Below, one piece after another: positions 19,166 through 42,211 of a DNA stretch of 64,000 bases (its first letter is position 1; every line of letters begins with the position of its first letter). Under the pieces are notes generated by a model, which did no database searches, was not told the origin of the DNA, and saw only the letters and a list, made by a program, of their open reading frames with translations. This DNA is from Arsukibacterium sp. UBA3155. Lineage in GTDB: Bacteria; Pseudomonadota; Gammaproteobacteria; Enterobacterales; Alteromonadaceae. The DNA lies in contig DEYP01000025.1 in NCBI GenBank assembly GCA_002364615.1, positions 248,001 through 312,000 of the forward strand, given 5' to 3'. The translations under genes were made by a program, and so were the position numbers.

Positions 19166-19242
19166 CGACTAAAGTTGGGGCTGGCAACGGCACTTACTGT
19201 GCTTTACAGTAGCAGCAACCGTTAATTTTCAGGTAACGCACT

Positions 19243-28360: not shown

Positions 28361-28499
28361 AAACCCTTACAATTAATTTCATCACCTTGAACAAGTTTAC
28401 CACTACTATCTGGTGATATTGACTAAACTTTTAGTTTTTATACTATAGCCGGATTAGCAAAAATAAATTAATCTATTGATTTATATATTAATTAAAACA

Positions 28500-28515
28500 T
28501 GGCATCAGCTTTGCT
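28500..28515 (+). promoter_or_regulatory. Sigma-54 (-24/-12) promoter of the PspB-like gene
   Basis: The sequence TGGCATCAGCTTTGCT matches the RpoN consensus TGGCACGN4TTGCT at 14 of the 16 positions including the unspecified four, with GG and GC separated by exactly 10 bases. It stands 47 bases before the start codon. An alternative sigma-70 promoter (TTGACT 28419, TACTAT 28441) and a dyad, ACTAAA-CT-TTTAGT at 28422-28435, lie further upstream. Confidence 0.75.
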
Positions 28516-28562
28516 TTTCGTTACATACTTCATTACATACTTACAAAAGAAAGGAGAACATC

Positions 28563-28775
28563 ATGGGACCATTTGAAGTTGGCGCCATCGCGATTATCGG
28601 CGGCTTGGCTTACGCAGCTTACGAAGTGTATATGAAAAACAACGCTAAAGCTGGCAAAGGTGAATTTGAGGCACTACGTGTTGAATTGCAACGACTCAGA
28701 GAACGCGTGAGTACCCTGGAAAGCATAGTCACCGACAAATCATATCAGTTGAAAGATCAAATTAATAAATTATAA
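28563..28775 (+). CDS. PspB-like small membrane protein with coiled coil
   Basis: This 70-residue protein has one N-terminal membrane helix (VGAIAIIGGLAYAAYEVYM), a short basic linker, and a C-terminal coiled-coil segment (LRVELQRLRERVSTLESIV). The last part resembles the MRERIQALESIL segment of PspB, the inner-membrane sensor partner in the phage-shock response. The start ATG 28563 follows AAAGGAGA. A sigma-54 promoter precedes it, as in the psp operon of E. coli. No pspA or pspC is adjacent, so it may be a stand-alone relative. Confidence 0.65.
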   Translation: MGPFEVGAIAIIGGLAYAAYEVYMKNNAKAGKGEFEALRVELQRLRERVSTLESIVTDKSYQLKDQINKL

Positions 28776-28800
28776 CTGAGCACGTAGCTAGCCCATTACT

Positions 28801-28825
28801 GCTGCCGCTTCGCCGGCAGCTTTTT
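28801..28825 (+). terminator. Rho-independent terminator after the PspB-like gene
   Basis: GCTGCCG (28801-28807) pairs with CGGCAGC (28814-28820) and is followed by TTTTT. Confidence 0.85.
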
Positions 28826-28947
28826 GCTTTTTAGGTGTCACAGAATTCACTATTAATTAGTCAAAATCACTATTTTACGGGTAGTACATTATATAAAAAC
28901 CCCGACAATAAATTCATAAATAATTGTTAAATATAGTTTTTAATTTA

Positions 28948-28963
28948 TGGCATAGCTTTTGAA
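28948..28963 (+). promoter_or_regulatory. Weak sigma-54-like element
   Basis: TGGCATAGCTTTTGAA has the complete -24 half and TTG of the -12 half, but the near-invariant C is replaced by A. It lies 29 bases upstream of the next gene, the right distance for a promoter. TCACTATTTTA occurs at about 28867, upstream of it. Confidence 0.4.
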
Positions 28964-28992
28964 CTACTGTAGTTATACCAACATAAGGAACT

Positions 28993-29220
28993 ATGCTCAT
29001 GAACAAAACAATCATTATTATTATTGCTGTCGCACTGGGTATTTACTGCTTGCCAACTATTTTGGCTATTATCGGTTCAGTATTTGGCATTTTGCTTGGT
29101 CTGGTCGCGGCAGTATTCGCCCTGGGCATCACTGCAATTGTTACCCTGGCACCCTTACTGCTGTTTGTCTGGCTGGTATGGTGGCTAATTCGTGACAACC
29201 GCAAAACGCAGCAGTATTAA
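28993..29220 (+). CDS. Small two-helix membrane protein
   Basis: This 75-residue protein is almost entirely hydrophobic: an N-terminal stretch (IIIIIAVALGIYCLPTILAII), a Gly-rich middle, and a second block (LAPLLLFVWLVWWLI) before a charged tail (RDNRKTQQY). AAGGAA lies just upstream; ATG 28993 or ATG 28999 may be the start. Function is unknown. Its position after the PspB-like gene and the sigma-54-like element suggest membership of the same envelope-stress group. A hairpin follows it. Confidence 0.65.
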   Translation: MLMNKTIIIIIAVALGIYCLPTILAIIGSVFGILLGLVAAVFALGITAIVTLAPLLLFVWLVWWLIRDNRKTQQY

Positions 29221-29250
29221 ATAAAACATCCGACGAACCGCAGTTTCTGG

Positions 29251-29283
29251 AAAGCCCTGCCAGATTAACCATGGCAGGGCTTT
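29251..29283. terminator. Hairpin terminator between convergent genes
   Basis: AAAGCCCTGCCA (29251-29262) pairs with TGGCAGGGCTTT (29272-29283). The T-run is short (three), so efficiency is uncertain. Confidence 0.6.
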
Positions 29284-29305
29284 ATTCGTGTCGCTATAAA
29301 AAGAC

Positions 29306-30265
29306 TTAACTCACCGACAACCGCTTTAACCGCAGCAGATCGCGCACCACCTCGTAAGCCGGTATTAACGCCAAACTTAACACGAAGAATTTAATCGTAC
29401 GCTGCAGCCAGTTTGGATCAAAGTGGCGGACCCAATTATCTGTGTCCAATTGCAATAGCGGCCCGCTTAATGCCAGAGTTAACAACATTAGCGTAAAAGC
29501 CAGGTTAACCAGCACATTTAACCGTAGCAATGGCGTATGCCACAATCGACGGCTTAATTGCCACAAACTACCAATAACTCCCAAGACAATAACAGGACTA
29601 AACCACATCAGTAACGGTAAAACGTGTGCGCTAAATACGGATTGAGCCGCAGCAGTGACAGCAAAATTTTGCTGCCATAATGGTAACCAGATAATCAGTA
29701 ACAGAAAGGCATAGGTCGCCAAATCGCTGAAAATATCACTAAGGCTAATATGCTGCCAACCAGCACCTACCGGCGGCAACTGTTTCGGATGCCATTGATC
29801 ATAAGTTTTAGATGAGCCCGCAGCAGCATTAACTGGCATCAGCGCAAACCCCAGAGTAATAGCAGTAAAGCCAAATACCGCATCTTCAATAAACCCCGAT
29901 GCCAGTCCCAAAATAAAGCGTATCAGGCCGAAATCAGCACCCGTTAACCAGGCTTTGGTCATAAAAACCACCTGTAGTACAAACAACACACCTAGCACCA
30001 TAAAAAGGGTATGTTTATAAAGCGGCATCAGATGCGCCCTGATCAGCGGTTCGGTTGGGCAAAACTGGCGGGCTACCTGTGTTGGGTGCCCCATATTTTT
30101 CAAAACATCAGCCACTTGCTGGTCGGTAAGATCTTGGCCAGTTTGTTCAGCCAGTGCATCCAGCTGATCCATAATATTGGCCTGCAATTCCCGGCCAATT
30201 TCCTGCCGTTTTGGCTCAGGCAGTTCGCGTTGCACCGCCGCGATATAACGTTTAACTAAATCCAT
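29306..30265 (-). CDS. HAAS-domain multi-pass membrane protein partnered with PadR
   Basis: The first about 85 residues are the charged HAAS/DUF1700-like domain typical of proteins encoded next to PadR repressors (RELPEPKRQEIGRELQ, then GHPTQVARQF). About six to seven hydrophobic helices follow. The start ATG 30265 overlaps the stop of the PadR gene (TGATG) and has GAGGAG upstream. The 319-residue protein probably senses or transmits a membrane signal to PadR, as proposed for HAAS proteins. The specific function is unknown. Confidence 0.75.
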   Translation of the reverse strand: MDLVKRYIAAVQRELPEPKRQEIGRELQANIMDQLDALAEQTGQDLTDQQVADVLKNMGHPTQVARQFCPTEPLIRAHLMPLYKHTLFMVLGVLFVLQVVFMTKAWLTGADFGLIRFILGLASGFIEDAVFGFTAITLGFALMPVNAAAGSSKTYDQWHPKQLPPVGAGWQHISLSDIFSDLATYAFLLLIIWLPLWQQNFAVTAAAQSVFSAHVLPLLMWFSPVIVLGVIGSLWQLSRRLWHTPLLRLNVLVNLAFTLMLLTLALSGPLLQLDTDNWVRHFDPNWLQRTIKFFVLSLALIPAYEVVRDLLRLKRLSVS

Positions 30266-30633
30266 CAGCTTTTCTCCTCTTCCTGCTGAATAAGCATGGT
30301 TTGCTCTGGCTGCAACAGCGGCCCCAGGGCATTGTTTAAGGTGGTCCATTCTCCGGTAAGTTGTGCCAGCAATTCAGCACCCAGTTCAGATATTTGATAG
30401 TAGCGCCGTTCCCGCCCTTCCCCTTGTTGCCATTCACTGTCAAGTAAGCCCTGATCGGCGAGGCGCCGTACCAGCGGGTATAAGGTACCTTCGTCTATAT
30501 CAATGTCGTTATCCTGCAACTGCCGGCGCAGCGAGTAGCCGTAGTGGCGCTGACGTAACGATGCCAGCACCGCCAGCACCAGCACGCCGCGACGCAATTC
30601 CAGGCGCATTTTATCTAGTTGAGCTGATGTCAT
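30265..30633 (-). CDS. PadR-family transcriptional repressor
   Basis: This 122-residue winged-helix protein has the PadR core RRGVLVLAVLASL, GYSLRRQLQ, DEGTLYPLVRRLADQGLL and the wing GRERRYYQISELG. The start was set at ATG 30633 (MTSAQLDKMRLELRRG), which matches the family. A longer frame to 30711 adds a Cys-rich segment that overlaps the operator-like dyads and is unlikely to be translated. It is coupled to the HAAS membrane gene. Two dyads directly upstream suggest autorepression. Confidence 0.88.
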   Translation of the reverse strand: MTSAQLDKMRLELRRGVLVLAVLASLRQRHYGYSLRRQLQDNDIDIDEGTLYPLVRRLADQGLLDSEWQQGEGRERRYYQISELGAELLAQLTGEWTTLNNALGPLLQPEQTMLIQQEEEKS

Positions 30634-30654
30634 AATCCGTCCTTGTATACGGTT

Positions 30655-30684
30655 GTTGCATACTGTGCAACGCATACTGTATGC
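30655..30684. promoter_or_regulatory. Operator-like double dyad upstream of padR
   Basis: GTTGCA-TACTG-TGCAAC (30655-30671) is directly followed by GCATAC-T-GTATGC (30672-30684). Both are inverted repeats with 6-base arms located 22-51 bases before the PadR start, as expected for a PadR autoregulatory operator. Confidence 0.55.
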
Positions 30685-30819
30685 CACACAGCAACATACT
30701 AGGCGACGCACAGTATAAAATCAAGCAACAGATAGTCAGTTTTGCTAAATTTTGGTTTTAATCAAATTTCGAACATCACTAAAATCACTTAAGCTATTGT
30801 TTATACGCTATAAAAATAT

Positions 30820-30835
30820 TGGCTCGTTTTCTGCC
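30820..30835 (+). promoter_or_regulatory. Sigma-54 promoter of the YccF gene
   Basis: TGGCTCGTTTTCTGCC matches the -24 (TGGC.CG) and -12 (TGC) elements with the exact GG-N10-GC spacing, 35 bases upstream of the start codon. Confidence 0.65.
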
Positions 30836-30870
30836 TGTAACACATGAAATTAAAGTAATAAGGACTAAAA

Positions 30871-31284
30871 ATGAGTGTGTTCAGACTGATATTTAATATA
30901 CTGTGGTTTGTATTAGGCGGCTTTGTGATGGGACTGCTGTGGTGGCTGGTTGGCGTATTGTGTTTTATCAGTATTATTGGTATTCCGTTTGGCCGCAGTT
31001 GCTTTGTCATTGGTGAGATGGCGTTTTGGCCATTCGGCCAGGATGCAGTAAACCGGCGTTATGTTAACCGATATGATGATATTGGCACCGGTACCTTAGG
31101 GCTGCTCGGCAATATTATCTGGTTTTTGCTATTCGGAATTTGGCTGGCGATAGGTCATTTAGGCCATGCCATAGTATGCTTTATTACGATCATCGGTATT
31201 CCGTTTGGCATTCAGCATTTAAAGCTGGCGATGTTAAGCCTGGCACCGATTGGTAAAACAGTGGTGGCACGCCGCGCGATTTAA
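30871..31284 (+). CDS. yccF: YccF-domain inner-membrane protein
   Basis: This 137-residue membrane protein carries two copies of the YccF (DUF307) repeat, seen as FISIIGIPFGRS and FITIIGIPFGIQ, each inside hydrophobic helices. About four membrane segments are expected. The family's function is not established. The start ATG 30871 is preceded by AATAAGGAC, and a sigma-54-type promoter lies 35 bases upstream. It ends 41 bases before the alkyltransferase-like gene. Confidence 0.88.
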   Translation: MSVFRLIFNILWFVLGGFVMGLLWWLVGVLCFISIIGIPFGRSCFVIGEMAFWPFGQDAVNRRYVNRYDDIGTGTLGLLGNIIWFLLFGIWLAIGHLGHAIVCFITIIGIPFGIQHLKLAMLSLAPIGKTVVARRAI

Positions 31285-31324
31285 CGCATGCAGTTATTAA
31301 ACAGCCATAGGCTGGGAGCAGAGT

Positions 31325-31663
31325 TTGACGGCAGAGAACTACCAGAAAATTTGGCAGACCGTATTATTAATTCCCGCTGGTAAAGTCGCCAGCTACGGCC
31401 AGGTTGCTGATTTAGCCGGTCTGCCGGGCCGGGCCAGGTTAGTGGGTAAAGCACTAGGCTACGCTCCCACAGAACTGGCCGTGCCATGGTACCGGGTACT
31501 GCGAAGTGATCGCAGCCTGGGATTTGCCCCAGGTTCAGCCACTGCACTGGAACAGCGGCAACTCTTGCTCGCCGAGGGTGTAGTGCTAAAACATAACCGG
31601 GTGAGCAAAGCGACGCTTTGGCAGCCTGACTTAGCCGAGCTGCTGTTTAAGTTGCAGTATTAA
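31325..31663 (+). CDS. ybaZ: Alkyltransferase-like (ATL) DNA repair protein
   Basis: This 112-residue protein is the MGMT active-site domain, but the reactive Cys of PCHRV is replaced by Trp55 (PWYRV). That makes it an ATL protein, which binds O6-alkylguanine and flags it for nucleotide-excision repair instead of removing the alkyl group. The family's IPAGKVASYGQVA and GRARLVGKAL helix-turn-helix segments are present. The likely start is TTG 31325, with GGGAG upstream; no nearby in-frame ATG exists. Its end overlaps the convergent LVIVD-repeat gene by 17 bases. Confidence 0.9.
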   Translation: MTAENYQKIWQTVLLIPAGKVASYGQVADLAGLPGRARLVGKALGYAPTELAVPWYRVLRSDRSLGFAPGSATALEQRQLLLAEGVVLKHNRVSKATLWQPDLAELLFKLQY

Positions 31664-34388
31664 CAGGCTTATACCCCTGCTTTATTCTGCGCCACAGTGG
31701 CCACACTCCCAACAGCAGCATACTAAACGGCATACTGCCACCGGATGATTCTGCTGCAGCCGGCGGCGGCGTTGGCAATGGTGTTGGGCCGGCCACTATT
31801 GTTAAGGTAATGCTGGCGGTGGCAGCAGCACCTCTGGCATCGGTAGCAGTAACACTTAGCACCAGTTGACTGCTACTGGCAGGTGCAATAAAACTAACCG
31901 TACTGCTATTGGCGTTTTGCAAACTAACGCCTGGCCCGCTGTCTTGCTGCCATTGATAACCTATCCTATCGCCCTCGGCATCCGTTGCCACTGCGGTTAA
32001 GGTCACGCTCTGGCTGGCATTAAGCTGCCGATTTTCACCAATAGTGACCATCGGCGGCGTATTGGCGTCGTCATCTAAAATTGTCAGAGTAAGCTCAGCG
32101 CTCGCGCCAATCTCTGTGCCGTTACTACCGGATAACCGCAATATCGCCGTTTCATCCTCTTCCAACAGCGTATCAGCGACAATTTGCAGCTCAATTTGTC
32201 GCTCACTGTTGTCACCATCCGGCCAACTCAGCTCGCCACTGGCCGCCATAATATCTTCACCAATGGTCGCGGTGCCGCTTTGTAACTGATAACTGACACT
32301 TAACGCCCCGTCGCTACCACCGAGCCTGCGTACGATTATCTCTACACTGCTATCAGCTTCTAACACCGATAGTGCCGATTCTGCCAGACTAATTACCCCG
32401 GCCCTGGGAGGATCATCGCCAAAGCGCAGTCGCACATAAGAGGGGCTGTGCAGGCTGGCACCATTTTTCGGGTCAAATAATCGGATAAACAGCTCGCGCC
32501 CCGCGTCCAGCCCCCGATCCAAGGTGGTAATACTGATGGTTTTATTACTACTGTCATTTGCCACCCAGCTTAGGCGACCACTGCTATTCTGATAGTCCAG
32601 ACCCGGTTCAGCCCGCCCGGCCAGGATTTCATAGCCAACGCTTACTGCTGCCGTGCCACCTAAGCGAATTACCTGCAGCTGCGCCACATCGCCAGGATTC
32701 ACCCGCAGCTCATTCTGACTAAACGCCAGTGCGCCGGCTTGCAGATTAGTGGTGTTATCACGAAAGAGATAAAGACCACTATTAATATCACTACCGATGA
32801 TGATGCCGGAAGGCAAATAAGGATACACCCCCCACATGCCGTTAAACGCTGCGCTATCAGCAGCAGGAAACGTATCAAAGAACCCGGCTTGCACCGGCAT
32901 TGTCGGGTCCGTAATATCAAGGATAGTTAAACCACGTTGATAGTTTGACATGTAATAACGGTTACCCCGGACAAAGCCATTGTGGTCAATTGCTCTGGTA
33001 GGTCCGCTGAAGGTGGCAGCTAAGCTTGGTGACGTTAAATTACTCAGCTCAAAAACCCGTACTGTGGTATTTAAACCGTGATTTACCTCATCCAGTTCGT
33101 CATGCACAAACAAGTATTGCTGATCTTCACTCCACCAGCCGGAATGCACATAGCTGGCCAGGCTGTAACTAAAATCAGCCAGCGCCAGGTTGCTGGCACC
33201 GCTTATATCCCATAGTTTGATATTCTGTTCATTAAAGTCAAATAGCACCTGGCACTCTGGCCGGTCACACTGACTACTGGCGCGCTGATCAGTAATCAGC
33301 ATGGAAGCAACATCATGACTGTAATCGCTGCGACTGGCACCGGTTTGTAACCAGTTGGCGCTTAACTGTAAAGGGTTGGCCAGGCTATAACTGGAGACCG
33401 CCCCACCTTGCTCTGGCTGACCCGCGATATGTAGCGCAGGAACCTGACCACTTAACGCCGTATTAGTGGTGTAATCAACATTGCTAATATACAAATTATG
33501 GGCTGAACGAGCTGCAGTATCTGCAACGGCAAGGCTCACACTCGCCGGTAAGTTATTTAAATCAATAATCTGAATATTATTGTTGGCCTCAGAGGAAACA
33601 TAAGCATAAGCCTGCCAGCGACCCAGTTCATCATTAAAAAACTGCAATACTTTAATGTCACGCCAGGTGGTATTAGTGCCACCAATGGTTCCTACCTCGA
33701 CCGGCGCTGCCACGTCTGCCAGATTGACCACTGCAGTGCCGTTATTCAAACCGATTAGCGCATATTCAATACCGCTGTTCAGATCGACATGGCCCCAGAT
33801 GTCATTGGCTGAACTGGGTGCAGAACTAAAATCGGTCAACGGCAAATGGCCTAACAAATCAATCTTATCGCAATTAAAAATACCTGCCTTACCATTCACA
33901 CATGCTGCGCTCTGCTGCGACTGTCCCAGCGCAGTATGGGCTGCAAGTTGCTGGTTAAGCTCAGCGCCAAAACGTCCGGGACCATCGCTGATAACCCGAA
34001 AACCGCGCTTGCTCAACTGATTGACGAATGCAACCGGCACCCCGGTTAATACGGTCTGATTTAATTGCGGCGCCTGCTGTAAAAAGTGATCAAAACGGTT
34101 ATAACCCCCCAGCACTGGCACAATTTCGCTTAGCAGTAATACCGCATCATCAACACTATTAAGCTGGTAATGACCTGAAGCTACCAGCACCTTATCGCCT
34201 TTACCTGCCTGGCTTAATGCATAGCCGATGCTGCGACAAGGCCGCAACACATTGTCACAGCGTCCGGTGTCTTGCCCGGTCTCCGCCACAAACCGGGCTT
34301 TGTCGTGCTCAGCATGCGCCAGTACCGATGGACAAAACCAACAGAGGGTAATTAGGCTAAAGAGTGACAAACAGTAAATCGTTTTCAT
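31647..34388 (-). CDS. Choice-of-anchor B (LVIVD-repeat) surface protein with GlyGly-CTERM
   Basis: This 913-residue protein has a signal peptide (about 1-24), a Cys-containing N-terminal segment, and LVIVD-type beta-propeller repeats (NIQIIDLNN, GLTILDITDPTMP) up to about residue 560. Two Calx-beta-like domains follow (about 560-780; SGTATIGEDI...), then a PKD-like domain (about 790-875). The C-terminus has a Ser/Gly-Gly motif (SSGGSMP), a hydrophobic helix (FSMLLLGVW) and a basic tail, as in GlyGly-CTERM sorting signals processed by rhombosortase. It is divergent from the MbnP/MbnH pair and may share its control region. Confidence 0.82.
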   Translation of the reverse strand: MKTIYCLSLFSLITLCWFCPSVLAHAEHDKARFVAETGQDTGRCDNVLRPCRSIGYALSQAGKGDKVLVASGHYQLNSVDDAVLLLSEIVPVLGGYNRFDHFLQQAPQLNQTVLTGVPVAFVNQLSKRGFRVISDGPGRFGAELNQQLAAHTALGQSQQSAACVNGKAGIFNCDKIDLLGHLPLTDFSSAPSSANDIWGHVDLNSGIEYALIGLNNGTAVVNLADVAAPVEVGTIGGTNTTWRDIKVLQFFNDELGRWQAYAYVSSEANNNIQIIDLNNLPASVSLAVADTAARSAHNLYISNVDYTTNTALSGQVPALHIAGQPEQGGAVSSYSLANPLQLSANWLQTGASRSDYSHDVASMLITDQRASSQCDRPECQVLFDFNEQNIKLWDISGASNLALADFSYSLASYVHSGWWSEDQQYLFVHDELDEVNHGLNTTVRVFELSNLTSPSLAATFSGPTRAIDHNGFVRGNRYYMSNYQRGLTILDITDPTMPVQAGFFDTFPAADSAAFNGMWGVYPYLPSGIIIGSDINSGLYLFRDNTTNLQAGALAFSQNELRVNPGDVAQLQVIRLGGTAAVSVGYEILAGRAEPGLDYQNSSGRLSWVANDSSNKTISITTLDRGLDAGRELFIRLFDPKNGASLHSPSYVRLRFGDDPPRAGVISLAESALSVLEADSSVEIIVRRLGGSDGALSVSYQLQSGTATIGEDIMAASGELSWPDGDNSERQIELQIVADTLLEEDETAILRLSGSNGTEIGASAELTLTILDDDANTPPMVTIGENRQLNASQSVTLTAVATDAEGDRIGYQWQQDSGPGVSLQNANSSTVSFIAPASSSQLVLSVTATDARGAAATASITLTIVAGPTPLPTPPPAAAESSGGSMPFSMLLLGVWPLWRRIKQGYKPVNTAT

Positions 34389-34506
34389 AGCGGTGCCTGT
34401 GCTTATTTATCGCTGGGGCCTTACCGGCATTTGCCTGTATCGCCAGTCGATTTTTTAATAGGTTTAGCGTATTGTTAACCGTAGATTTTTTAAACACAAC
34501 CTAATT

Positions 34507-35274
34507 ATGAATATTGCTAAAACCGCTTTTCTGAGTATAACCTTTGTTGTGGCTAGCGGCCTTTTAATTGCCTGCAACCCCAAGCCTGATCGTAAAGCAC
34601 TAACTATTATGAATATCAACCCAGCCTGGCAGCAACAACCGATAGTTTGCCATGAGGCTATTACGATACAAAACGAACAGTGGAAACTGCAGTATCTGCG
34701 GTTTTATCTCAGCGATTTTAAGCTTAATCAGCAACCGCAATTGTTAACAATTACACCATGGCAGCAGCCAGGCTTAGCGTTGCTTGGTACCGATTGTCAT
34801 GGCAACGATAACTGGCAGCTCACTTTTGCTGAACCGCTGGCTCCAGGTCAACTGAGTTTCACCCTTGGCCTGCCCTTTGCGATTAACCATCAGAACCCCC
34901 TGACTGCAATCTCACCGCTGAATTTCAGCGAAATGTTCTGGAGCTGGCAACTGGGTTACAAGTTTTTACGGCTGGATATGCAAGGCCCCGACTATGGCTG
35001 GGCGTTTCACCTGGGGTCGACAGGCTGTCAGTCCGCCAGCGTTTTGCGCCCTCCGGCACTGCCATGCCGCGCTGTTAATACCTTTGAAGTAACACTGGAT
35101 TATCAGCCAAATCAGAAACTGCAGCTCAACCTGGCGGCACTGCTGTCTGACATTGTACTTAGTCAACAAAACAGCTGCATGTCTGACAGCCTGCAGACTA
35201 GCTGTCAGCGGCTTTTTGATAATTTAACCCTGACCGCCCCGTGGAAATTGAGCCCGGCGAGCTCTGCTCCATGA
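34507..35274 (+). CDS. mbnP: MbnP-family copper-binding lipoprotein (metallo-mystery pair)
   Basis: This 255-residue protein has a lipobox (LLIAC, Cys23). Six further cysteines (48, 97, 174, 187, 224, 233) include those of the four-Cys motif, with the family's GSTGCQ and LPCRAV. The MFWSWQLGYKF segment (143-153) holds the conserved tryptophans. In characterised MbnP, one Trp is oxidised to kynurenine by the partner MbnH to build a copper site. The stop overlaps the next gene by 4 bases (ATGA), so the pair is coupled. The symbol is by family. No methanobactin genes are present here, so the role is a stand-alone copper protein. Confidence 0.85.
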   Translation: MNIAKTAFLSITFVVASGLLIACNPKPDRKALTIMNINPAWQQQPIVCHEAITIQNEQWKLQYLRFYLSDFKLNQQPQLLTITPWQQPGLALLGTDCHGNDNWQLTFAEPLAPGQLSFTLGLPFAINHQNPLTAISPLNFSEMFWSWQLGYKFLRLDMQGPDYGWAFHLGSTGCQSASVLRPPALPCRAVNTFEVTLDYQPNQKLQLNLAALLSDIVLSQQNSCMSDSLQTSCQRLFDNLTLTAPWKLSPASSAP

Positions 35275-36437
35275 AATTATTCGCATCCTGCAAGCAAATG
35301 CCACTCACTTTCTGCATGATAGTGCTGCTAATGCTTACCAGTTGTGGCAAGCCAACTTCGCCAGACTCAAGCTGGCAATGGCCACTGCCAGAAGGCATGC
35401 CTTACCCGGTTGTACCTGCAGAAAACCCGATGACCCGGGCAAAAGTAGAGCTTGGCCGCTATTTATTTTATGACAAGCAGCTGTCAGCGAATGGCAAGCA
35501 AAGCTGTGCCAGTTGTCATCAGCAGCAATTTGCCTTTGCAGAGCCAAGCGGTCGCTCAGTCGGCAGCACCGGTCAGCAACATCGACGTAATGCATTAGCC
35601 TTGGTAAACGTGGCGTATAACAATACGCTTACCTGGGCCCACGATGGCCTGACGGACATTGAACAACAGTTGCTGATTCCGCTATTTAGCGAGACCCCGG
35701 TGGAGCTGGGATTAACCGGCGCTGAGCAGCAACTGATGCAACGACTTGAACGCCCCCCCTACCCGCAGTTATTTCAGCAGGCGTTTAATAGTGAGCAGCC
35801 TGATATGCAGCAGGTCGTATTTGCCCTGGCCAGTTTTGTCCGCAGTTTACTGTCGTTCCAGTCTGATTTTGACCGCTATGCTTATCAGAATGAAGATGCA
35901 GCACTAAGCCCAGTGCAAATTGAAGGCATGAACCTGTTTTTCTCTGAACGGCTGGAATGTCATCACTGCCATGGTGGTTTTAATTTCACTCAGGCTACCA
36001 ACCATAGTCAGCAGCGTTTAGACTTGCGACCATTTCATAACACCGGGTTATATTTTGCAGCACGGCCCGGCCGGGCTGCACCAGGCTACCCGCAACACGA
36101 TCGCGGCCTGGCAGAAATTACCATGAACAGCGCTGACGATGGTCGCTTCAGGGCGCCAACCCTGCGCAACATTGCCCTGACCGCCCCCTATATGCATGAT
36201 GGCAGTCTGGCAACACTTGAGCAGGTTTTGGATTTTTATCAGGCTGGCGGCAGAACGATAACAGCAGGGCACTATGCAGGTGATGGTCGGCAACATCCGG
36301 CTAAAAGTCAGTTTGTCCGCGGGTTTAAACTTACTAACAGCGAACGTGAGGCAGTCCTGGCTTTTTTAAACAGCCTTAGCGACCCGCAATTTATCGCAAA
36401 CCCCGAGCATAGTAACCCTTGGTTAGCACACCCATAA
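35271..36437 (+). CDS. mbnH: MbnH-type di-heme cytochrome c peroxidase-like enzyme
   Basis: This 388-residue MauG/CcpA-family protein has two c-type heme motifs, CASCH (79-83) and CHHCH (230-234). The conserved RAPTLRNIALTAPYMHDG segment provides the second heme environment. A lipobox (LTSC, Cys25) predicts a membrane-anchored periplasmic lipoprotein. Enzymes of this branch perform oxidative tailoring of a protein Trp, here presumably on MbnP. It starts at ATG 35271 inside the mbnP stop codon. A terminator follows. Confidence 0.88.
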   Translation: MKLFASCKQMPLTFCMIVLLMLTSCGKPTSPDSSWQWPLPEGMPYPVVPAENPMTRAKVELGRYLFYDKQLSANGKQSCASCHQQQFAFAEPSGRSVGSTGQQHRRNALALVNVAYNNTLTWAHDGLTDIEQQLLIPLFSETPVELGLTGAEQQLMQRLERPPYPQLFQQAFNSEQPDMQQVVFALASFVRSLLSFQSDFDRYAYQNEDAALSPVQIEGMNLFFSERLECHHCHGGFNFTQATNHSQQRLDLRPFHNTGLYFAARPGRAAPGYPQHDRGLAEITMNSADDGRFRAPTLRNIALTAPYMHDGSLATLEQVLDFYQAGGRTITAGHYAGDGRQHPAKSQFVRGFKLTNSEREAVLAFLNSLSDPQFIANPEHSNPWLAHP

Positions 36438-36516
36438 TCGCACAATTTCACAACACAGTCGTGCATCCTATATCTAACCTGGTTCGACAATAACTGTCCG
36501 GTAAACCAGCAAAAAA

Positions 36517-36540
36517 ATACCGGCCTAAGTTGGCCGGTAT
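36517..36540. terminator. Bidirectional terminator between mbnH and the BON gene
   Basis: ATACCGGCC (36517-36525) pairs with GGCCGGTAT (36532-36540), with an A-run before and T-rich sequence after. Confidence 0.85.
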
Positions 36541-36583
36541 TATTGTTTACGGGTTATCGGTATTTGCTCAGAAAGCAATCACA

Positions 36584-37150
36584 TTAGTAGTCTTTCTTTG
36601 CTACTCTCAATTGATTATCAACACCCTTAACATCTTTAGTCTTTTTGGCAATAGCTTCAGCCAAATCTTTTTCTGCATCAGAATCGACCTCACCTTTCAG
36701 CATTACCATGCCGTTTTTAACATCAACGTCAATAGCTGTACCACTCGTTTCCGACTCAAACAGCAAGCGGGTTTTTACTACGGTCGCCAATTTCGCATCA
36801 GTTAAGCCACCCACGTCTTCGTCGTGGTCTTTCTTATTTCGCATTTTGCTGTCTTTAACAACAACTAATTTATTGTCCACCGATGTTACGCCATCCAGAT
36901 TTTCAATTAGTTCGGCAGCAAGCGCTTTATCTACTTCCCTATCGACTTTACCTGTTAATATGACTTTACCATTTTTTACATCGGTATTGATGTTAAATGA
37001 GTTCAGGTTACCGTTCAGTAATAAGGTAGTTTCAGCTTTGCCATCTATCCAGGCATCCTTTGAACTGTCTTTCCAGTCGTTGGCGGTTGCTGATAGAGAA
37101 GTACCGGCCAGGGCCACGGTCATCATTACGGCTAAAGTTGTACGTTTCAT
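36584..37150 (-). CDS. Periplasmic protein with two BON domains
   Basis: A signal peptide (about 1-23) precedes two BON domains (about 36-104 and 118-186). Each carries the typical pattern NGKVILTGKVDREVDK or NGMVMLKGEVDSDAEK, followed by a V..V.G...VDN.L segment. OsmY-like BON proteins bind phospholipid and rise in envelope or osmotic stress. A good sigma-54 promoter lies 36 bases upstream on the same strand. AAGGAG precedes the ATG. Confidence 0.9.
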   Translation of the reverse strand: MKRTTLAVMMTVALAGTSLSATANDWKDSSKDAWIDGKAETTLLLNGNLNSFNINTDVKNGKVILTGKVDREVDKALAAELIENLDGVTSVDNKLVVVKDSKMRNKKDHDEDVGGLTDAKLATVVKTRLLFESETSGTAIDVDVKNGMVMLKGEVDSDAEKDLAEAIAKKTKDVKGVDNQLRVAKKDY

Positions 37151-37185
37151 ATAGTCACTCCTTCGTTGTGAGACGCTAATAACTT

Positions 37186-37201
37186 TGCCAGTTTAATGCC
37201 A
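37186..37201 (-). promoter_or_regulatory. Sigma-54 promoter of the BON-domain gene
   Basis: On the minus strand the sequence is TGGCATTAAACTGGCA, with GG and GC spaced by 10 bases as RpoN needs. It lies 35 bases before the ATG. Confidence 0.65.
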
Positions 37202-37310
37202 ACATCTTTAATAAATACAAGTTATTGATCTACAAATAAATGTTAAATACCGTTCATTTAGTGTTAATTTTTTGATTGTATTTTTAACCGATCACCCGGT
37301 AAATAATTCA

Positions 37311-37769
37311 CTATTTTATTCTCAATAATAGCGGGCAAAGCTGATCCGTAACAATTTGCAAGCCAGCCGTTAAGTTAGCCAATGCCCTGGCATTGTCTGG
37401 CTGCGTCAGGCCCCGGTTCAACCGTTTAAATGTGCCTAATTGCCAGCGAAGTTGTTGTGGCAGTTCTGCCAACCATGTCTGCTGTTCTGGTTCAGATTCT
37501 GGCTCTGCGCTGTTGTCCTTGTACCACTGACAAATCGCATTCACATCCTGATCTGATGCAACCTTGGTATTTTCAGCTGCCGCAAAAGTCGCCGCTTGCT
37601 GATGCAACAATTCCAACTCAATAAAATAACGTCGAATATTATTATCGGCTATTAATGGCGCGGTTCGCTGATAGAACAATCTTGCCTGTTCACTTACTGC
37701 CAACACCAGACTTAAAATTGCCTGATCGCCTGCACAATGATTTGCTGCTTTTAAATCGTATGCCAACAC
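37311..37769 (-). CDS. Helical cytoplasmic protein of unknown function
   Basis: This 152-residue protein has no signal or membrane segment. It appears to be an all-helical bundle, with an NIRRYFIELELLHQQAATF segment reminiscent of the DUF2383/PA2169-type four-helix proteins that accompany BON and DUF883 genes. I cannot assign a family firmly. The start is GTG 37769, eight bases behind AAGGAG. A weak sigma-54-like element lies 40 bases upstream, and the sigma-54 activator gene is divergent. Confidence 0.6.
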   Translation of the reverse strand: MLAYDLKAANHCAGDQAILSLVLAVSEQARLFYQRTAPLIADNNIRRYFIELELLHQQAATFAAAENTKVASDQDVNAICQWYKDNSAEPESEPEQQTWLAELPQQLRWQLGTFKRLNRGLTQPDNARALANLTAGLQIVTDQLCPLLLRIK

Positions 37770-37809
37770 AATGCCATCTCCTTAAACTACTTACTTCCAG
37801 TAATTCATA

Positions 37810-37825
37810 TTCAATTCATGTACCA
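37810..37825 (-). promoter_or_regulatory. Weak sigma-54-like element
   Basis: On the minus strand it reads TGGTACATGAATTGAA. GG and TTG are correctly spaced, but the -12 C is an A and one -24 base differs. It lies 40 bases before the GTG start of the helical protein. Confidence 0.35.
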
Positions 37826-37885
37826 AGTTTAAAGTTCTGATTTTTAATAAGTTAAGTATTGCGTCTTGTGTCCTCAATATAAATT

Positions 37886-37900
37886 CAGTAAATTTTACTG
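37886..37900. promoter_or_regulatory. Palindrome, candidate activator binding site
   Basis: CAGTAAA-T-TTTACTG is a perfect 7-base-arm palindrome in the intergenic region between the divergent helical-protein gene and the sigma-54 activator gene. It lies 61 bases upstream of the weak sigma-54 element, within the range of an enhancer-type site. Related TAAA(A/T)TTT cores occur upstream of other genes in this group. Confidence 0.5.
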
Positions 37901-37962
37901 ATTGCCATTGTTAATTTTACATTGCTGAACTAGAGTAATGCACGAATAGAAGGAGTGACGCC

Positions 37963-39306
37963 ATGAGCAAACCACGGTTATTTATTCATCTGCGTGACCC
38001 GGAACTCACTGAGAAATTACTGCAATCGCCTGCCGTCAGACAATTTATCATCATAAAGAGCAGCGACAGTTCAGCCTGGTCTGAACAACTTCAGCAGCAA
38101 TGTGATCTTGCCCTTATCGAGTCCGACGAGAATGACAGCGACGATTATAGCCGACTGCTGGCCAGCAAAAAGCTCACCGAGATCGATTTCATTTTTATTA
38201 GCAGCGGTAAGCCCATTGAATTGCTGGACAGATTAATGCAGCGGGGAGCAGGGTATCATTTCCGGGCACCTTTGGATTTCGGTTCGGTAATCGATACTTT
38301 GCAGGATTTTTATCAGCAACTAAGTACAGAGCGCAAAAACATCAAGGCTACCTCCAGTGAACTTGATCAATTCGGAATGTTGGTAGGTTCCTCCAAGCCA
38401 ATGCTAAAACTGTACCGGACTATACGAAAGGTAGCCGTTACTGAAGCTAACGTACTGATAGTAGGCGAAAGTGGTGCCGGTAAAGAGTTGGTTGCCAATA
38501 CCCTGCATCTGGCCAGTTTACGTGCCGACAAGCCCTTTGTAGCAATAAATTGTGGTGCACTTAGCCCAGAGTTGATCGACAGTGAACTTTTTGGTCATAT
38601 CAAAGGCGCATTTACCGGTGCTCATCGTGATCATCAGGGCGTGTTTTCTCAGGCTGAGGGCGGAACTTTGTTTCTGGATGAAATTACCGAAATGCCGCTT
38701 GAGCAACAGGTAAAATTACTCAGGGTACTGGAAAACGGAGAATACCGGCCGGTCGGCAGCGATAAAACGTCTACCGCCAATGTGCGGATTGCCGCGGCAA
38801 CCAACCGCGACCCGATACAGGCAATTGCCGAAGATATGCTGCGGGAAGATTTATATTTCCGACTGGCCCAGTTTCCAATAACAGTGCCACCCCTTCGCGA
38901 CAGAGCAGATGATGTCATTGGCCTTGCACAACACTTTCTGGCCTATCGCAATGTGCAGGAGCAACAGAGTAAGCAATTTTCCGCCGAAGCACATCGCCTG
39001 ATTGCTCATCATTGCTGGCCTGGCAATGTCCGGGAATTAAAGCATGCCGTGGAGCGTGCCTATATTCTGGCGGGTACTATTATCGAGCCAGAACACTTAT
39101 TACTGGATGAACCTAAAAGCGAGGCAGATGCTGAGATTGTTGTCGACGCGATACCAACCGGGGTGCGATTAGATGAGTTAGAAAAAGCGGCAATATTGCG
39201 CACCCTTGCTAAAAATGGCGGTAATAAAACAGATACTGCGCAACAGCTTGGTGTTAGTGTAAAAACGTTATACAACAAACTGGAAAAATATCAATTAGAA
39301 CGCTGA
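37963..39306 (+). CDS. Sigma-54-dependent activator with degenerate receiver domain
   Basis: This 447-residue enhancer-binding protein has a full AAA+ core (about 138-370): Walker A GESGAGKE (168-175), GAFTGA loop (215-220) for sigma-54 contact, Walker B TLFLDE, and the arginine fingers in REDLYFRL. A Fis-type helix-turn-helix ends it ([18 protein letters not shown]). The first about 125 residues look like a receiver, but the acceptor position reads LIESDEND with Glu53, and the usual KP is RAP. It is therefore unlikely to be phosphorylated and may be constitutively active or ligand- or protein-controlled. It lies among genes with sigma-54 promoters and probably controls them. Confidence 0.9.
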
Positions 39307-39399
39307 CATGCCAGACAAACTCAGGCTAATCAAGTTTCGGCTACAGCATATTAAAAAAAAGCGCCTGCGCTGAATCAATCACCTCAATCGGCCAGATAA

Positions 39400-39431
39400 A
39401 AAAAGCCACTGCAAAGTTGCAGTGGCTTTTT
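39400..39431. terminator. Bidirectional terminator (activator gene / DUF1328 gene)
   Basis: AAAAAGCCACTGCAA (39400-39414) pairs with TTGCAGTGGCTTTTT (39417-39431) around a two-base gap. Confidence 0.92.
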
Positions 39432-39452
39432 CAGATCTCAAAGTACTTGTGG

Positions 39453-39629
39453 CTAGACCTTCGGCGCTTTGCCTCGTATAGCACCCGATATCAGTGCGAT
39501 AACCAACAGCACAATAAAAATAAAAAAGATGATTTTCGCTATCCCGGCGGCAGCTCCGGCAATACCGCCAAAACCCAGTACACCCGCAATCAACGCGATA
39601 ACTAAAAAGGTTAATGCCCATCCTAACAT
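39453..39629 (-). CDS. DUF1328 (YtjA-family) small membrane protein
   Basis: This 58-residue protein begins [20 protein letters not shown], then [20 protein letters not shown] and a second helix ending ISGAIRG, exactly the DUF1328/YtjA pattern. It has two membrane helices with a glycine/alanine-rich turn. The start ATG 39629 follows AAGGAGC. A sigma-54 promoter lies 55 bases upstream, and a stable stem-loop occupies the leader. Function is unknown; homologues are stress-induced in several proteobacteria. Confidence 0.92.
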
Positions 39630-39661
39630 TTTTGCTCCTTAGTGCATGGTTTGCACTTAGT

Positions 39662-39681
39662 GTGAATAGTTCGCTATTCAC
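39662..39681 (-). ncRNA. Stem-loop in the 5' leader of the DUF1328 mRNA
   Basis: GTGAATAG and CTATTCAC (8-base arms, perfect) flank a four-base loop, CGAA as read on the mRNA strand. It lies between the predicted sigma-54 promoter and the start codon and might affect stability or translation. It is a cis element, not a separate RNA gene. Confidence 0.45.
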
Positions 39682-39683
39682 TA

Positions 39684-39699
39684 TGCGAATGGCATGCCA
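39684..39699 (-). promoter_or_regulatory. Sigma-54 promoter of the DUF1328 gene
   Basis: The minus-strand sequence TGGCATGCCATTCGCA has the full TGGCA of -24 and GC of -12 with 10-base spacing. Confidence 0.65.
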
Positions 39700-39821
39700 A
39701 TAATAGCCAATCTCAAGTCATTGATTTATAAAAGGTAAAATTAGCACTCTAAAATAAACATACGATGGAAAGCAAAAAATCAGCAATTATTACTTACGCC
39801 AGAGTAACTTTTTCCTGACAA

Positions 39822-40907
39822 TTACTCTTTGCTTATTGTGTCGCTGTCAGCACTGAGTAATATGCGCCAGTAAGGAAACAGCTCAAAATGAGAAGCAATT
39901 ATCTTCAGGCAAACCAGTAAAGGTATAGCAATTAGTACCCCTACAGCCCCCCACATCCAGCCCCAGATGAACATCCAGATCACAACGAGCAAAGGATTCA
40001 TATTAAATCGTTTACCCAAGGCCATAGGGGTAACCAGTTGCGACTCAATGATATTAAGCATCAAAAATGTTGCCGGGACCATCAGTGCCTGCCCCGTTAC
40101 ATCAAACTCAACAAATCCAACAGCAGCCAGCAAAACGGTTAAGATAAAAGGCCCAAGATACGGTGCAAAATTTAACACGGTTGCCAAAACACCCCATAAC
40201 AGCGGATCCGCTACGCCCAATATACTCATCACTAAAAACGTAGCAACACCGAGCATAATGTTGATAGCGGAAATCACCAGTACATAACGGCTTATGTCGT
40301 GCTCTATGGTCTGATACATTTTTACCAGATTTTTCTTTTCATTCAGAGTCGACGCGCCCCGCACAATGTTACGAAGCAAGGTGCCGCCAAACACCAGAAA
40401 TAAATACGTAAGAATAATGATTGTTGCCAGCTGAAACAGCATCATTGCTGTGGTTTGAGCCAGCATGGAAAGCAAAGGAACGAAACCTGCCCCAATTGCG
40501 GAATCAATCGGGTTTTTCTCGTCTTCATTTTCAGATAGTACTGAGGTTTTTAAAGAGTCAAGCGAACCTGCCATATCATCAACCTGCAGCGCCAGTTTGC
40601 TGCTCAAAAGTGGCAGTCGCTCCATCCAGGCAGCAGCAGGGCTGTATAGCAGACTAACTCCATATCCTACAGCGCAGACAATGACGACAAGTACGATTAA
40701 TGAGGAAAAAGGTTTTGGCAATTTCAGCCGAACTAAAAACCTGACAGCCGGGCTGGCAAACAATGCGATAAAAGCGGCGACTATAATTGGCAGCAATAAG
40801 CTTCGGGTAAAATAAAAGGTGTAAATCACTGCCAGCGCAGTCAGTATTTTGAGCGCAAGCTCTGCGCTCAAGCGACTACGTCTGGCGAGTGACGGCGGAG
40901 CAATCAA
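39822..40907 (-). CDS. AI-2E-family (UPF0118) membrane permease
   Basis: This 361-residue protein has the typical AI-2E exporter-family layout: two N-terminal helices (ILTALAVIYTFYFT, LLLPIIVAAFIALF), a central extracytoplasmic segment with coiled character, and a C-terminal cluster of about five to six helices with LGPFILTVLLAAVGF and NPLLVVIWMFIWGWMWGAVG. Members export varied small molecules or act in Na+/H+ exchange; transport of autoinducer 2 is not proven for most. It follows the YqjK-like gene by 31 bases, so it probably ends the yqjD-like operon. Confidence 0.88.
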   Translation of the reverse strand: MIAPPSLARRSRLSAELALKILTALAVIYTFYFTRSLLLPIIVAAFIALFASPAVRFLVRLKLPKPFSSLIVLVVIVCAVGYGVSLLYSPAAAWMERLPLLSSKLALQVDDMAGSLDSLKTSVLSENEDEKNPIDSAIGAGFVPLLSMLAQTTAMMLFQLATIIILTYLFLVFGGTLLRNIVRGASTLNEKKNLVKMYQTIEHDISRYVLVISAINIMLGVATFLVMSILGVADPLLWGVLATVLNFAPYLGPFILTVLLAAVGFVEFDVTGQALMVPATFLMLNIIESQLVTPMALGKRFNMNPLLVVIWMFIWGWMWGAVGVLIAIPLLVCLKIIASHFELFPYWRILLSADSDTISKE

Positions 40908-40938
40908 AATAACTCCAGATAAAGACAGGACAATGAAC

Positions 40939-41190
40939 CTAAGTTAATAAGCGTAACCATTTTATCGCTCCAACGCCCCGCATTGTTTTCACCACGATAC
41001 TATGACGAAATTGCATCAGCATACCCGCGCTAAAACTTAATGTTAAACCCGGAGCGGACCCAAGAAACTGCTTAGTGCGTTGCCCCGCCAGCCAAAGGTA
41101 AGCATGGCGAAGCTGCTGATGTTGTTCAAATGCCTCGTTACATTGTTGTATTTTAAGCCTGTCTTTTTTAGTCAGCAGATCGATCAGCAT
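40939..41190 (-). CDS. YqjK-like small protein
   Basis: This 83-residue basic protein lies directly behind YqjE, as yqjK does in E. coli. It has an amphipathic, Gln/Arg-rich N-terminal helix (KKDRLKIQQCNEAFEQHQQLRHAYL) split over residues about 10-33, and a weakly hydrophobic C-terminus. ATG 41190 follows GGAGG at the right distance; the start overlaps the yqjE end by 23 bases. Assignment rests on position and general pattern more than on motif. Confidence 0.6.
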   Translation of the reverse strand: MLIDLLTKKDRLKIQQCNEAFEQHQQLRHAYLWLAGQRTKQFLGSAPGLTLSFSAGMLMQFRHSIVVKTMRGVGAIKWLRLLT

Positions 41191-41638
41191 TATCACCTCC
41201 GGCAGTTTCAGTCGAGAATCGGAGAATCCCTTTAACCTGAGCTACAGTATTGCTAAAGCCAATCTGCTTCAGCGAATAACGCATATTTCGCAAACACCAA
41301 TACAAAAAAGCAAGCTGGAATAAAAGTAACACACCAGCAGTGAGCGGCACAGATGAAGTAGCTTGCAATAGCAAGTAGCCCGCAAACACCAATATCGAGC
41401 CCCATAACATGATGACTCCCGCGCCCAGTGCCACTAATAACCCCGCCGCAAGCATTAAGCCCCGGCGGGACAGCGCCATTTCAGCACTGGCAGTCTGCCT
41501 GGTAAGCTGAGTTTGTTGTTTGTATTGGTCGGCACTGAGGCTAAGCAATGAGGCTAGTTCAGTTAGCTGAGCCATTACTTTTTCTGGTAATGGCTCAGTA
41601 GCCGCTTGCTGCGGCTCCGTATCCTGCGGTCCAACCAT
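41168..41638 (-). CDS. yqjE: YqjE-like phage-holin-family inner-membrane protein
   Basis: This 156-residue protein begins with a polar helix (LTELASLLSLSADQYKQQTQL), followed by two membrane helices (RRGLMLAAGLLVALGAGVIML and LLLQATSSVPLTAGVLLLF) in tandem. The layout is that of YqjE (phage holin family 8-like). It begins two bases after the YqjD-like stop, so it is in one operon with it. Function is unknown; the E. coli homologue is found near ribosome-associated YqjD. Confidence 0.8.
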   Translation of the reverse strand: MVGPQDTEPQQAATEPLPEKVMAQLTELASLLSLSADQYKQQTQLTRQTASAEMALSRRGLMLAAGLLVALGAGVIMLWGSILVFAGYLLLQATSSVPLTAGVLLLFQLAFLYWCLRNMRYSLKQIGFSNTVAQVKGILRFSTETAGGDNADRSAD

Positions 41639-41640
41639 AA

Positions 41641-41970
41641 TCAGTTGCCGCGACGCAGCAGGGCGCTAACAAGCATGCCTGCAGCGAAAGCGATACCTGC
41701 TGCCGCTAACGGATTCTCCTGAGCAAATTGTTTACTGCGCTCATATGAGCCCTGCATTTGCATTTTCAGCTCTTCTTGCTTCTGGTCAATAGTAGCCTTG
41801 GAGCTTGCCGCAGTTCTGCGTAACGAGTCTTCTGCTGTGGCTGCTTTACCAGCCATCGTATCAACTGCTTGATGCGCTGCTTCTGACGCGCGTTCAGTTA
41901 CAGGCGAGTTAGTTAACGGAGTCGCTTTAGAATTACCAGCTGCTTTACTACCAGTTTGAGTTGTTGCCAT
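41641..41970 (-). CDS. yqjD: DUF883 (YqjD/ElaB-family) membrane-anchored protein
   Basis: This 109-residue protein has a long charged helical N-terminus (SSKATIDQKQEELKMQ) and one C-terminal membrane helix (AAAGIAFAAGMLVSALL) with a RRG end, as in ElaB/YqjD. In E. coli YqjD binds stationary-phase 70S and 100S ribosomes at the membrane and slows growth. A near-perfect sigma-54 promoter lies 95 bases upstream. It heads the yqjD-yqjE-yqjK-AI-2E operon. Confidence 0.85.
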   Translation of the reverse strand: MATTQTGSKAAGNSKATPLTNSPVTERASEAAHQAVDTMAGKAATAEDSLRRTAASSKATIDQKQEELKMQMQGSYERSKQFAQENPLAAAGIAFAAGMLVSALLRRGN

Positions 41971-42064
41971 TGTAAACCTCCTGCTTATGTATAACGAAAA
42001 TACAGCATGTGGACTTACACACCTGTATCACTATTTAAGACTAAACTATTACTACAATGCCTGT

Positions 42065-42080
42065 TGCAATGCCTATGCCA
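42065..42080 (-). promoter_or_regulatory. Sigma-54 promoter of the yqjD-like operon
   Basis: The minus-strand sequence TGGCATAGGCATTGCA matches TGGCA-N6-TTGCA completely, with GG-N10-GC spacing. It is the best match in the window. CAGTAATTTGG lies about 30 bases further upstream. Confidence 0.78.
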
Positions 42081-42211
42081 AAAATCATTAAATAAAAAAT
42101 CATTTAAAGTCAGTAATTTGGAAATAGAATCGTGACGGGCCGAACAGGATTTTTTAACAGTATAGTGTAGAAGTTACCTGATAACAGTAAACATTACAGG
42201 CCCGATAATAA

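Follow-up and report, generated by a model that had tools for sequence, protein, structure and literature searches.

Two neighbouring sets of sigma-54-type promoters in Arsukibacterium: an apparently enlarged PspF regulon and a putative second envelope-stress module

Little is known of what the stress-associated proteins BON/OsmY, DUF1328, YqjD and YccF do. In Escherichia coli, the stress genes osmY-ytjA and yqjCDEK are RpoS-linked. FleQ/FlrA and VpsR, for their part, are orphan bacterial enhancer-binding proteins (bEBPs) with a non-phosphorylatable receiver. The PspF regulon of E. coli is composed of pspABCDE and pspG, the latter being the sole other known target of PspF beyond the psp operon according to PMC9239133. 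The DNA considered here, termed the window, is a stretch of 64,000 nucleotides from the 3.89 Mb genome of Arsukibacterium sp. UBA3155 (contig DEYP01000025.1, positions 248,001 to 312,000), whose nearest named relatives at the locus are Arsukibacterium, then Rheinheimera, Alishewanella and Psychromonas. A segment of this window, from 28500 to 42080, contains seven -24/-12 elements of the sigma-54 type upstream of genes for small stress-associated proteins, with the gene of a sigma-54 activator at 37963 among them, and was described in an earlier note as a local regulon of envelope-stress proteins.

These genes are better described as two adjacent sigma-54 regulons, a reading given a probability of about 0.7. 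Set B, which includes the 28563 gene, the 28993 gene and yccF, would be controlled by PspF, and set A, which includes BON, DUF1328, yqjDE and their neighbours as well as, possibly, the divergent 37769 gene, would be controlled by the bEBP encoded at 37963. The genes are divided by two different upstream enhancers, and thus the reading as a single regulon fails. Judged from sequence, set B seems to extend the phage-shock response already known, while set A appears to be the novel part, an apparently undescribed second sigma-54 envelope-stress module alongside Psp. The features of set B are as follows.

28411..28427, plus strand: set B enhancer TGGTGATATTGACTAAA of the 28563 gene, PspF-type (14.1 bits with the pspF-pspA matrix)
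28500..28515, plus strand: -24/-12 element TGGCATCAGCTTTGCT of the 28563 gene (14.9 bits)
28563..28775, plus strand: 70-aa protein, one N-terminal membrane helix predicted by eye, C-terminus PspB-like
28856..28872, minus strand: set B enhancer of the 28993 gene, near-palindromic (17.5 bits)
28948..28963, plus strand: -24/-12 element TGGCATAGCTTTTGAA of the 28993 gene, GG-N10-GA, kept in 3/3 linked orthologues
28993..29220, plus strand: 75-aa small hydrophobic protein, no Pfam family above cut-off
30733..30749, plus strand: set B enhancer TAGTCAGTTTTGCTAAA of yccF (12.6 bits)
30820..30835, plus strand: -24/-12 element TGGCTCGTTTTCTGCC of yccF (11.8 bits)
30871..31284, plus strand: yccF (PF03733, 127 bits; NCBIfam YccF above cut-off)

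Set A and its putative activator follow at higher coordinates.

36584..37150, minus strand: BON protein with two BON stretches, OsmY-like (PF04972, 122.6 bits; OsmY equivalog below cut-off)
37186..37201, minus strand: -24/-12 element TGGCATTAAACTGGCA of BON (12.3 bits)
37285..37302, minus strand: set A enhancer TTACCGGGTGATCGGTTA of BON (18.1 bits)
37311..37769, minus strand: 152-aa protein, divergent from the activator, no Pfam match
37810..37825, minus strand: -24/-12-like element TGGTACATGAATTGAA of the 37769 gene, GG-N10-GA, in 12/12 orthologues
37886..37900, minus strand: palindrome CAGTAAAATTTACTG, aligned in 23 loci, GGTAAAACTTACC in many Rheinheimera
37963..39306, plus strand: orphan sigma-54 activator, a bEBP (PF00158 Sigma54_activat, 221 bits; Fis-type HTH_8)
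39453..39629, minus strand: DUF1328 small hydrophobic protein (PF07043, 58.7 bits)
39684..39699, minus strand: -24/-12 element TGGCATGCCATTCGCA of DUF1328 (14.6 bits)
39790..39808, minus strand: degenerate counterpart of the set A enhancer at DUF1328, its position matching TTACC..GGTAA of relatives
39822..40907, minus strand: AI-2E family transporter (PF01594, 153 bits)
40939..41196, minus strand: small protein in the YqjK position, so named by position alone, no Pfam match
41168..41638, minus strand: membrane protein in the YqjE position, by gene order (PF07332, 19.6 bits, cut-off 28.4)
41641..41970, minus strand: YqjD-like protein with a DUF883 C-terminus (PF19029, 24.9 bits, slightly under the cut-off of 27)
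42065..42080, minus strand: -24/-12 element TGGCATAGGCATTGCA of yqjD (16.6 bits), in 6/6 linked orthologues
42174..42190, minus strand: set A enhancer TTACTGTTATCAGGTAA of yqjD (14.3 bits)

The five GG-N10-GC elements reported in the earlier note (28500, 30820, and 37186, 39684 and 42065 on the minus strand) are all present, together with its two weaker ones (28948, and 37810 on the minus strand), both of which are GG-N10-GA. This last form is not disqualifying, as the pspA promoter of many members of the genus is itself TGGCAAGAAACCTGAA. Against an approximate sigma-54 matrix with a maximum of 18.8 bits, the seven elements score 16.6, 14.9, 14.6, 12.3, 11.8, 11.6 and 9.9 bits. Comparison with an intergenic background, proposed in the same note, came out in their favour. 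The background was sampled as 400 kb of the same genome in 20 stretches (~10%), within which 59.7 kb of intergenic gaps contain 41 sites of at least 9.5 bits, or 0.69 per kb. In the segment, 8 such sites are situated in 2.2 kb of gaps (3.6 per kb), where 1.5 are expected (Poisson P 1.9e-4), and 7 sites reach at least 11.5 bits, where 0.48 are expected (Poisson P 8e-7); the remainder of the window has 0.60 intergenic sites of at least 9.5 bits per kb. Both counts for the segment include two probable chance sites outside the list of the earlier note (29147, plus strand, and 30671, minus strand) and miss the element at 28500, which the crude gene caller hid inside an overlong open reading frame (ORF). 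Once the two chance sites are removed, 6 sites remain where 1.5 are expected (P 0.005) and, at the higher threshold, 5 where 0.48 are expected (P 1.5e-4). A score of at least 11 bits is found in only 10 of 228 sampled upstream regions, versus six of the seven elements. The bare -24/-12 pattern was uninformative as a genome-wide test, with 1169 loose matches at one mismatch or fewer and 480 for the reversed control.

The elements are also conserved in most orthologues, while the flanking sequence diverges. A site of at least 11 bits is present before yccF in 25/27 orthologues, BON in 20/21, DUF1328 in 17/18, yqjD in 6/6, the 28993 gene in 3/3 and the 28563 gene in 19/25; five of the six failures of this last gene are tandem pairs with the site (14.9-15.4 bits) before the first copy. 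The 37810 element is weak (8.4-9.9 bits), yet it is kept in 12/12 orthologues. In an alignment of 23 loci, ~23 bp around it hardly vary in 20; of the remaining three, two end early and one is without it. Sigma-54 (RpoN) itself is encoded in the genome (TIGR02395, 512 bits, above cut-off). The earlier proposal of RpoN-dependent envelope genes finds good support in position, enrichment, conservation and the presence of RpoN; that of one local regulon under the 37963 protein is not supported.

Side-by-side comparison of the upstream DNA of orthologues reveals two different conserved motifs, A and B, that are unrelated to each other. Eight distinct DUF1328 sites, taken from genomes farther away, served to build the matrix for motif A, and that for motif B comes solely from the DNA between pspF and pspA in 27 genomes, with 11 distinct sites; both were judged against 169 control upstream regions, a pass being a score above the control 95th percentile. 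Motif A passes before BON (20/21), DUF1328 (15/18) and yqjD (5/6), of which the DUF1328 result is not independent, since the matrix derives from DUF1328 sites. In set B it passes before the 28563 gene in 2/25, yccF in 2/27 and the 28993 gene in 0/3, and before the 37769 gene in 0/12. Motif B passes before the 28563 gene (20/25), yccF (19/27) and the 28993 gene (2/3), and is near background in set A (BON 1/21, DUF1328 3/18, yqjD 1/6; 37769 gene 2/12). Within the genome itself, the three set B genes, BON and yqjD each score above all 169 controls for their respective motif. The consensus of the set A enhancer is TTACCG-N5/6-CGGTAA, and its centre precedes the -24 box by ~80 to 117 bp. Where the yqjD operon has been relocated, in G011 and G014, enhancer A is still recognisable and the sigma-54 element scores 16.1 and 14.1 bits, respectively. 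The combined enhancer A pattern matched 27/27 genomes, including five without the activator and BON, and among the matches listed the recognised recurrent rows are upstream of BON, DUF1328 and yqjD. The matrix for motif B, which contains no E. coli site, returns 17.0 bits at E. coli pspA and 15.8 at pspG, with at most 4.3 at seven other upstream regions. The combined enhancer B pattern has 22 occurrences, spread over 13 of 19 genomes, against 4 for the reversed control; of the 22, 10 precede a 28563-type gene, three a 28993-type gene and two possible extra targets.

The best reading of set B is that of a PspF regulon with added members, owing to its PspF-type enhancer, the presence of its 28563 and yccF promoter elements without the 37963 activator, and the presence of pspF and pspABC in the genome. 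On contig C5, pspF is divergent from pspA, and pspA, pspB and pspC are all above their cut-offs (PF04012, PF06667 and PF04024, respectively); the classical psp arrangement, pspA-pspB-pspC with a divergent pspF, is therefore present on that contig and not in the window. The earlier note saw neither pspA nor pspC, and for that reason set the system apart from the classical psp operon, to which it held it to be related. The absence is true of the window at most, and the distinction drawn from it is wrong given the PspF-PspABC locus elsewhere in the genome, of whose regulon set B seems to be part. PspF is above its curated cut-off (TIGR02974) in 28 of 30 genomes, this one included, and a PspA match is found in 30/30. 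Each of the 25 genus genomes searched has the 28563 gene and yccF. The elements of these two genes are kept in all seven of the genus genomes that have no 37963 activator (first tandem copies counted), with motif B passing for yccF in four of these. In three additional orthologues of the 28993 gene (G005, G010 and G023), a motif B site is accompanied by a GG-N10-GA element of 11.1-12.6 bits. By analogy with the mechanism in E. coli, stress on the inner membrane would most likely free PspF from PspA, allowing PspF to drive set B together with pspABC.

As in E. coli, PspF, pspA, pspB and pspC are all encoded here, and the set B enhancer matches that of E. coli pspA and pspG; the set differs by the addition of yccF, an extra PspB-like protein and the 75-aa protein, and its -12 boxes have GC or GA where those of E. 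coli psp are GG-N10-GT. The description of the 28563 protein as PspB-like is upheld by its C-terminus, which resembles PspB in a family alignment, but not by PF06667, which at 15.4 bits (E 0.02) is below its cut-off of 25.6, and PspB identity was thus rejected. Identity of the 28993 protein with PspG was likewise rejected, there being no Pfam PspG match at E 10. In five genus genomes (L154, L155, L156, L147 and L149), two 28563-type copies stand in tandem, with the element before the first. Possible extra PspF targets in single genomes are a 267-aa reading frame (L310) and a 232-aa reading frame (L321), both of them preceded by a motif B site and by a sigma-54-like element (10.4 and 14.6 bits, respectively).

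The gene at 37963 encodes a sigma-54 activator, as the earlier note had it: along with Sigma54_activat and HTH_8, the GAFTGA loop is present in 18 of 20 aligned activator rows, GSFTGA taking its place in two. Of the 28 NCBIfam models matched, none of the 25 listed reaches its cut-off for this protein. No Pfam receiver was found in the first 136 residues of any of the 20 activator members, and the position of the phospho-Asp is occupied by Glu or Gln in 19 of the 20 rows and by Gly in one, so that the phosphorylatable receiver of an NtrC-type response regulator is not what the 37963 protein carries. Compared with the PDB, the N-terminus gives 18 weak matches, of which 11 are receivers (best E 0.03), and its profile is colinear with true receivers, with Glu opposite the phospho-Asp (pairwise E 0.0016, probability just 16%). 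On these weak matches, the receiver-like fold of this region is putative. The protein shares with FleQ/FlrA and VpsR an AAA+ domain with GAFTGA, a Fis-type HTH and a putatively receiver-like N-terminus without phospho-Asp, and differs from them in its neighbours, which are BON, DUF1328 and YqjD genes as opposed to flagellar or biofilm genes. With no phospho-site, a protein partner is likely, and the activator is probably controlled by such a partner or by its own level and not by a kinase. It would bind TTACCG-N5/6-CGGTAA upstream of the set A genes, remodel the sigma-54 polymerase and switch these genes on.

Within the genus, the activator and BON co-occur. An activator orthologue of at least 58% identity is present in 18 of 25 genus genomes, and a BON orthologue (at least 66%) in 18/18 genomes with the activator and 2/7 without (Fisher P 4e-4). 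From gene order, it may be guessed that the divergent 37769 protein could restrain the bEBP, within the genus, as PspA restrains PspF. The palindrome at 37886 is a possible autoregulatory site. The 37769 protein does not match PF09537 (DUF2383); its homologue in G015 (L040) is weakly DUF2383-like, at 19.1 bits versus a cut-off of 30.8.

Beyond the genus, the N-terminal profile of the activator is found in at least 22 of 295 genomes of the order, in 9 of 99 genera, a lower bound because at most 14 candidates were scored per genome. All 20 matches outside the genus, spread across seven families, were examined as activator loci of ~20 kb each. In every one of these loci a BON gene is situated within 4 kb of the activator, and in 19 it has a sigma-54 element of at least 9 bits. 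DUF1328 is present in 15 loci (in G038 it was missed by tblastn and found by profile), with its own element of at least 11.5 bits in eight; six of the other DUF1328 genes are behind BON in the same direction, and one has neither an element of its own nor BON ahead. The yqjD gene is linked in seven loci, with an element of ~14 bits or more in six of these, and a small lipoprotein is near the activator in 14, a phosphatase-DAGK (diacylglycerol kinase) fusion in 13 (Pfam having been run on one), and an AI-2E transporter homologue in six, all of family f11 or f21. By tblastn, the 37769-type gene is in none of the 20; in G029 an ORF at the equivalent position aligns at 22%. Module genes are likewise absent from 33 background or other-bEBP loci, consisting of 20 of 20 kb, 10 of ~4 kb and three of 12 kb, with two of the 4-kb loci lying inside two of the 12-kb loci. 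The contigs of L361 and L364 are those of L297 and L298. Eight rows, from seven unlinked BON genes, show no element of at least 9 bits; one of these genes, that of G037, is behind a DUF1328 gene that has one. Together, these loci outline what may tentatively be proposed, at somewhat less than even odds, as an apparently undescribed sigma-54 envelope-stress pathway parallel to Psp in seven families, in which a phosphorylation-independent orphan bEBP would act on BON, DUF1328, the lipoprotein and the phosphatase-diacylglycerol-kinase fusion, and in some on YqjDE and the AI-2E transporter. In family f15 (L049, L355), a gene for a CsbD stress protein is also near the activator.

Three other explanations were weighed against that of two regulons. 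Chance matches, with the genes transcribed by sigma-70 or sigma-S, would agree with the frequency of loose matches across the genome and with E. coli osmY, ytjA, yqjC, yqjD and yccF, which are without a sigma-54 element (at most 6.7 bits); such an origin is highly improbable, and was dismissed on the enrichment over the own-genome background and on the conservation of the elements in most orthologues while their flanks diverge. Control of all seven units by the 37963 activator, as one local regulon, is favoured by the position of every element in the window, no more than ~10 kb from the activator, and by the presence of yccF in the 20-kb slice around the activator in 5/5 Arsukibacterium loci. 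The same slice is without yccF in 14/14 other loci, and the two unrelated enhancers, together with the 28563 and yccF elements of the seven activator-less genomes, argue against this explanation strongly enough for it to be rejected as improbable. Less remote, albeit still unlikely, is that set A is served by another bEBP, such as the phospho-competent response regulator of G018 and G020, the local bEBP being just linked or a co-regulator. Both of these genomes retain set A promoters and enhancer A, with BON and DUF1328, together with a related response regulator and no 37963 orthologue; the nearest bEBP in G020 is a response regulator with a true receiver domain adjoining a CHASE3 histidine kinase, and that of G018, with its phospho-competent receiver, is much alike in sequence (L247, L248). 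This receiver-bearing bEBP may replace the orphan activator there. G037 (L096, L119), in which no activator orthologue was found, has DUF1328 directly before BON, with a DUF1328 element of 13.8 bits (GG-N10-GA). Opposed to this explanation are the activator-BON linkage of the 20 loci outside the genus, the strong co-occurrence of the two genes, and the own-genome bEBPs, which among the matches listed have 38-45% identity over the aligned part.

The cases of G018, G020 and G037 weigh against the two-regulon reading as well, as do several further results. The sigma-54 matrix is an approximate one based on the published consensus. At DUF1328 in this genome, motif A is at background (3.4 bits), its site being degenerate, and matrix A finds no match at the 37886 palindrome (0/12). 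Co-occurrence with the activator is weaker for DUF1328, at 14/18 genomes with the activator versus 2/7 without (P 0.058). Outside the genus, motif A passes in only ~8 of the 20 BON regions, mostly in families f6 and f15; in most distant families no such enhancer can be seen, and elsewhere the target site has probably changed along with the protein. Motif B fails at 8 of 27 yccF regions, including those of G003, G016 and G019, all without the activator, and at five of the 25 regions upstream of the 28563 gene, and its combined pattern recovered neither yccF nor pspA in the 19 genomes. Lastly, 10 of the 20 activator N-termini weakly match PF01596 Methyltransf_3 (best E 1.7e-4), matches that are taken as spurious.

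With regard to E. coli, osmY adjoins ytjA and the order yqjD-yqjE-yqjK is the same, the families being the same or similar to those of set A; the difference is that the E. coli genes have no sigma-54 element, and no bEBP is annotated in the E. coli stretches compared. In the literature surveyed, mostly open-access and including PMC3162934, PMC9239133, PMC4641369 and PMC12316311, there is no description of yccF under PspF, nor of a bEBP-BON-DUF1328 module. The machinery is known and the targets are unexpected, with what would be a second pathway beside Psp. The PspF regulon would be widened, and a second sigma-54 envelope response added whose activator seems to bypass phosphorylation. The link of BON/OsmY, DUF1328, YqjD and YccF proteins to defined sigma-54 enhancers also offers a route to the inducing signal.

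Elsewhere in the window, a sigma-54-like site at 19188-19203 (11.3 bits) is situated upstream of an ORF at 19243. The interval between the 28993 gene and yccF (29306-30711) encodes a regulator of the PadR type and a membrane protein with a HAAS domain. Close to the start of the PadR gene is a palindrome, kept in several Arsukibacterium, that resembles a PadR operator; this candidate operator may explain the chance sigma-54 match at 30671-30686.

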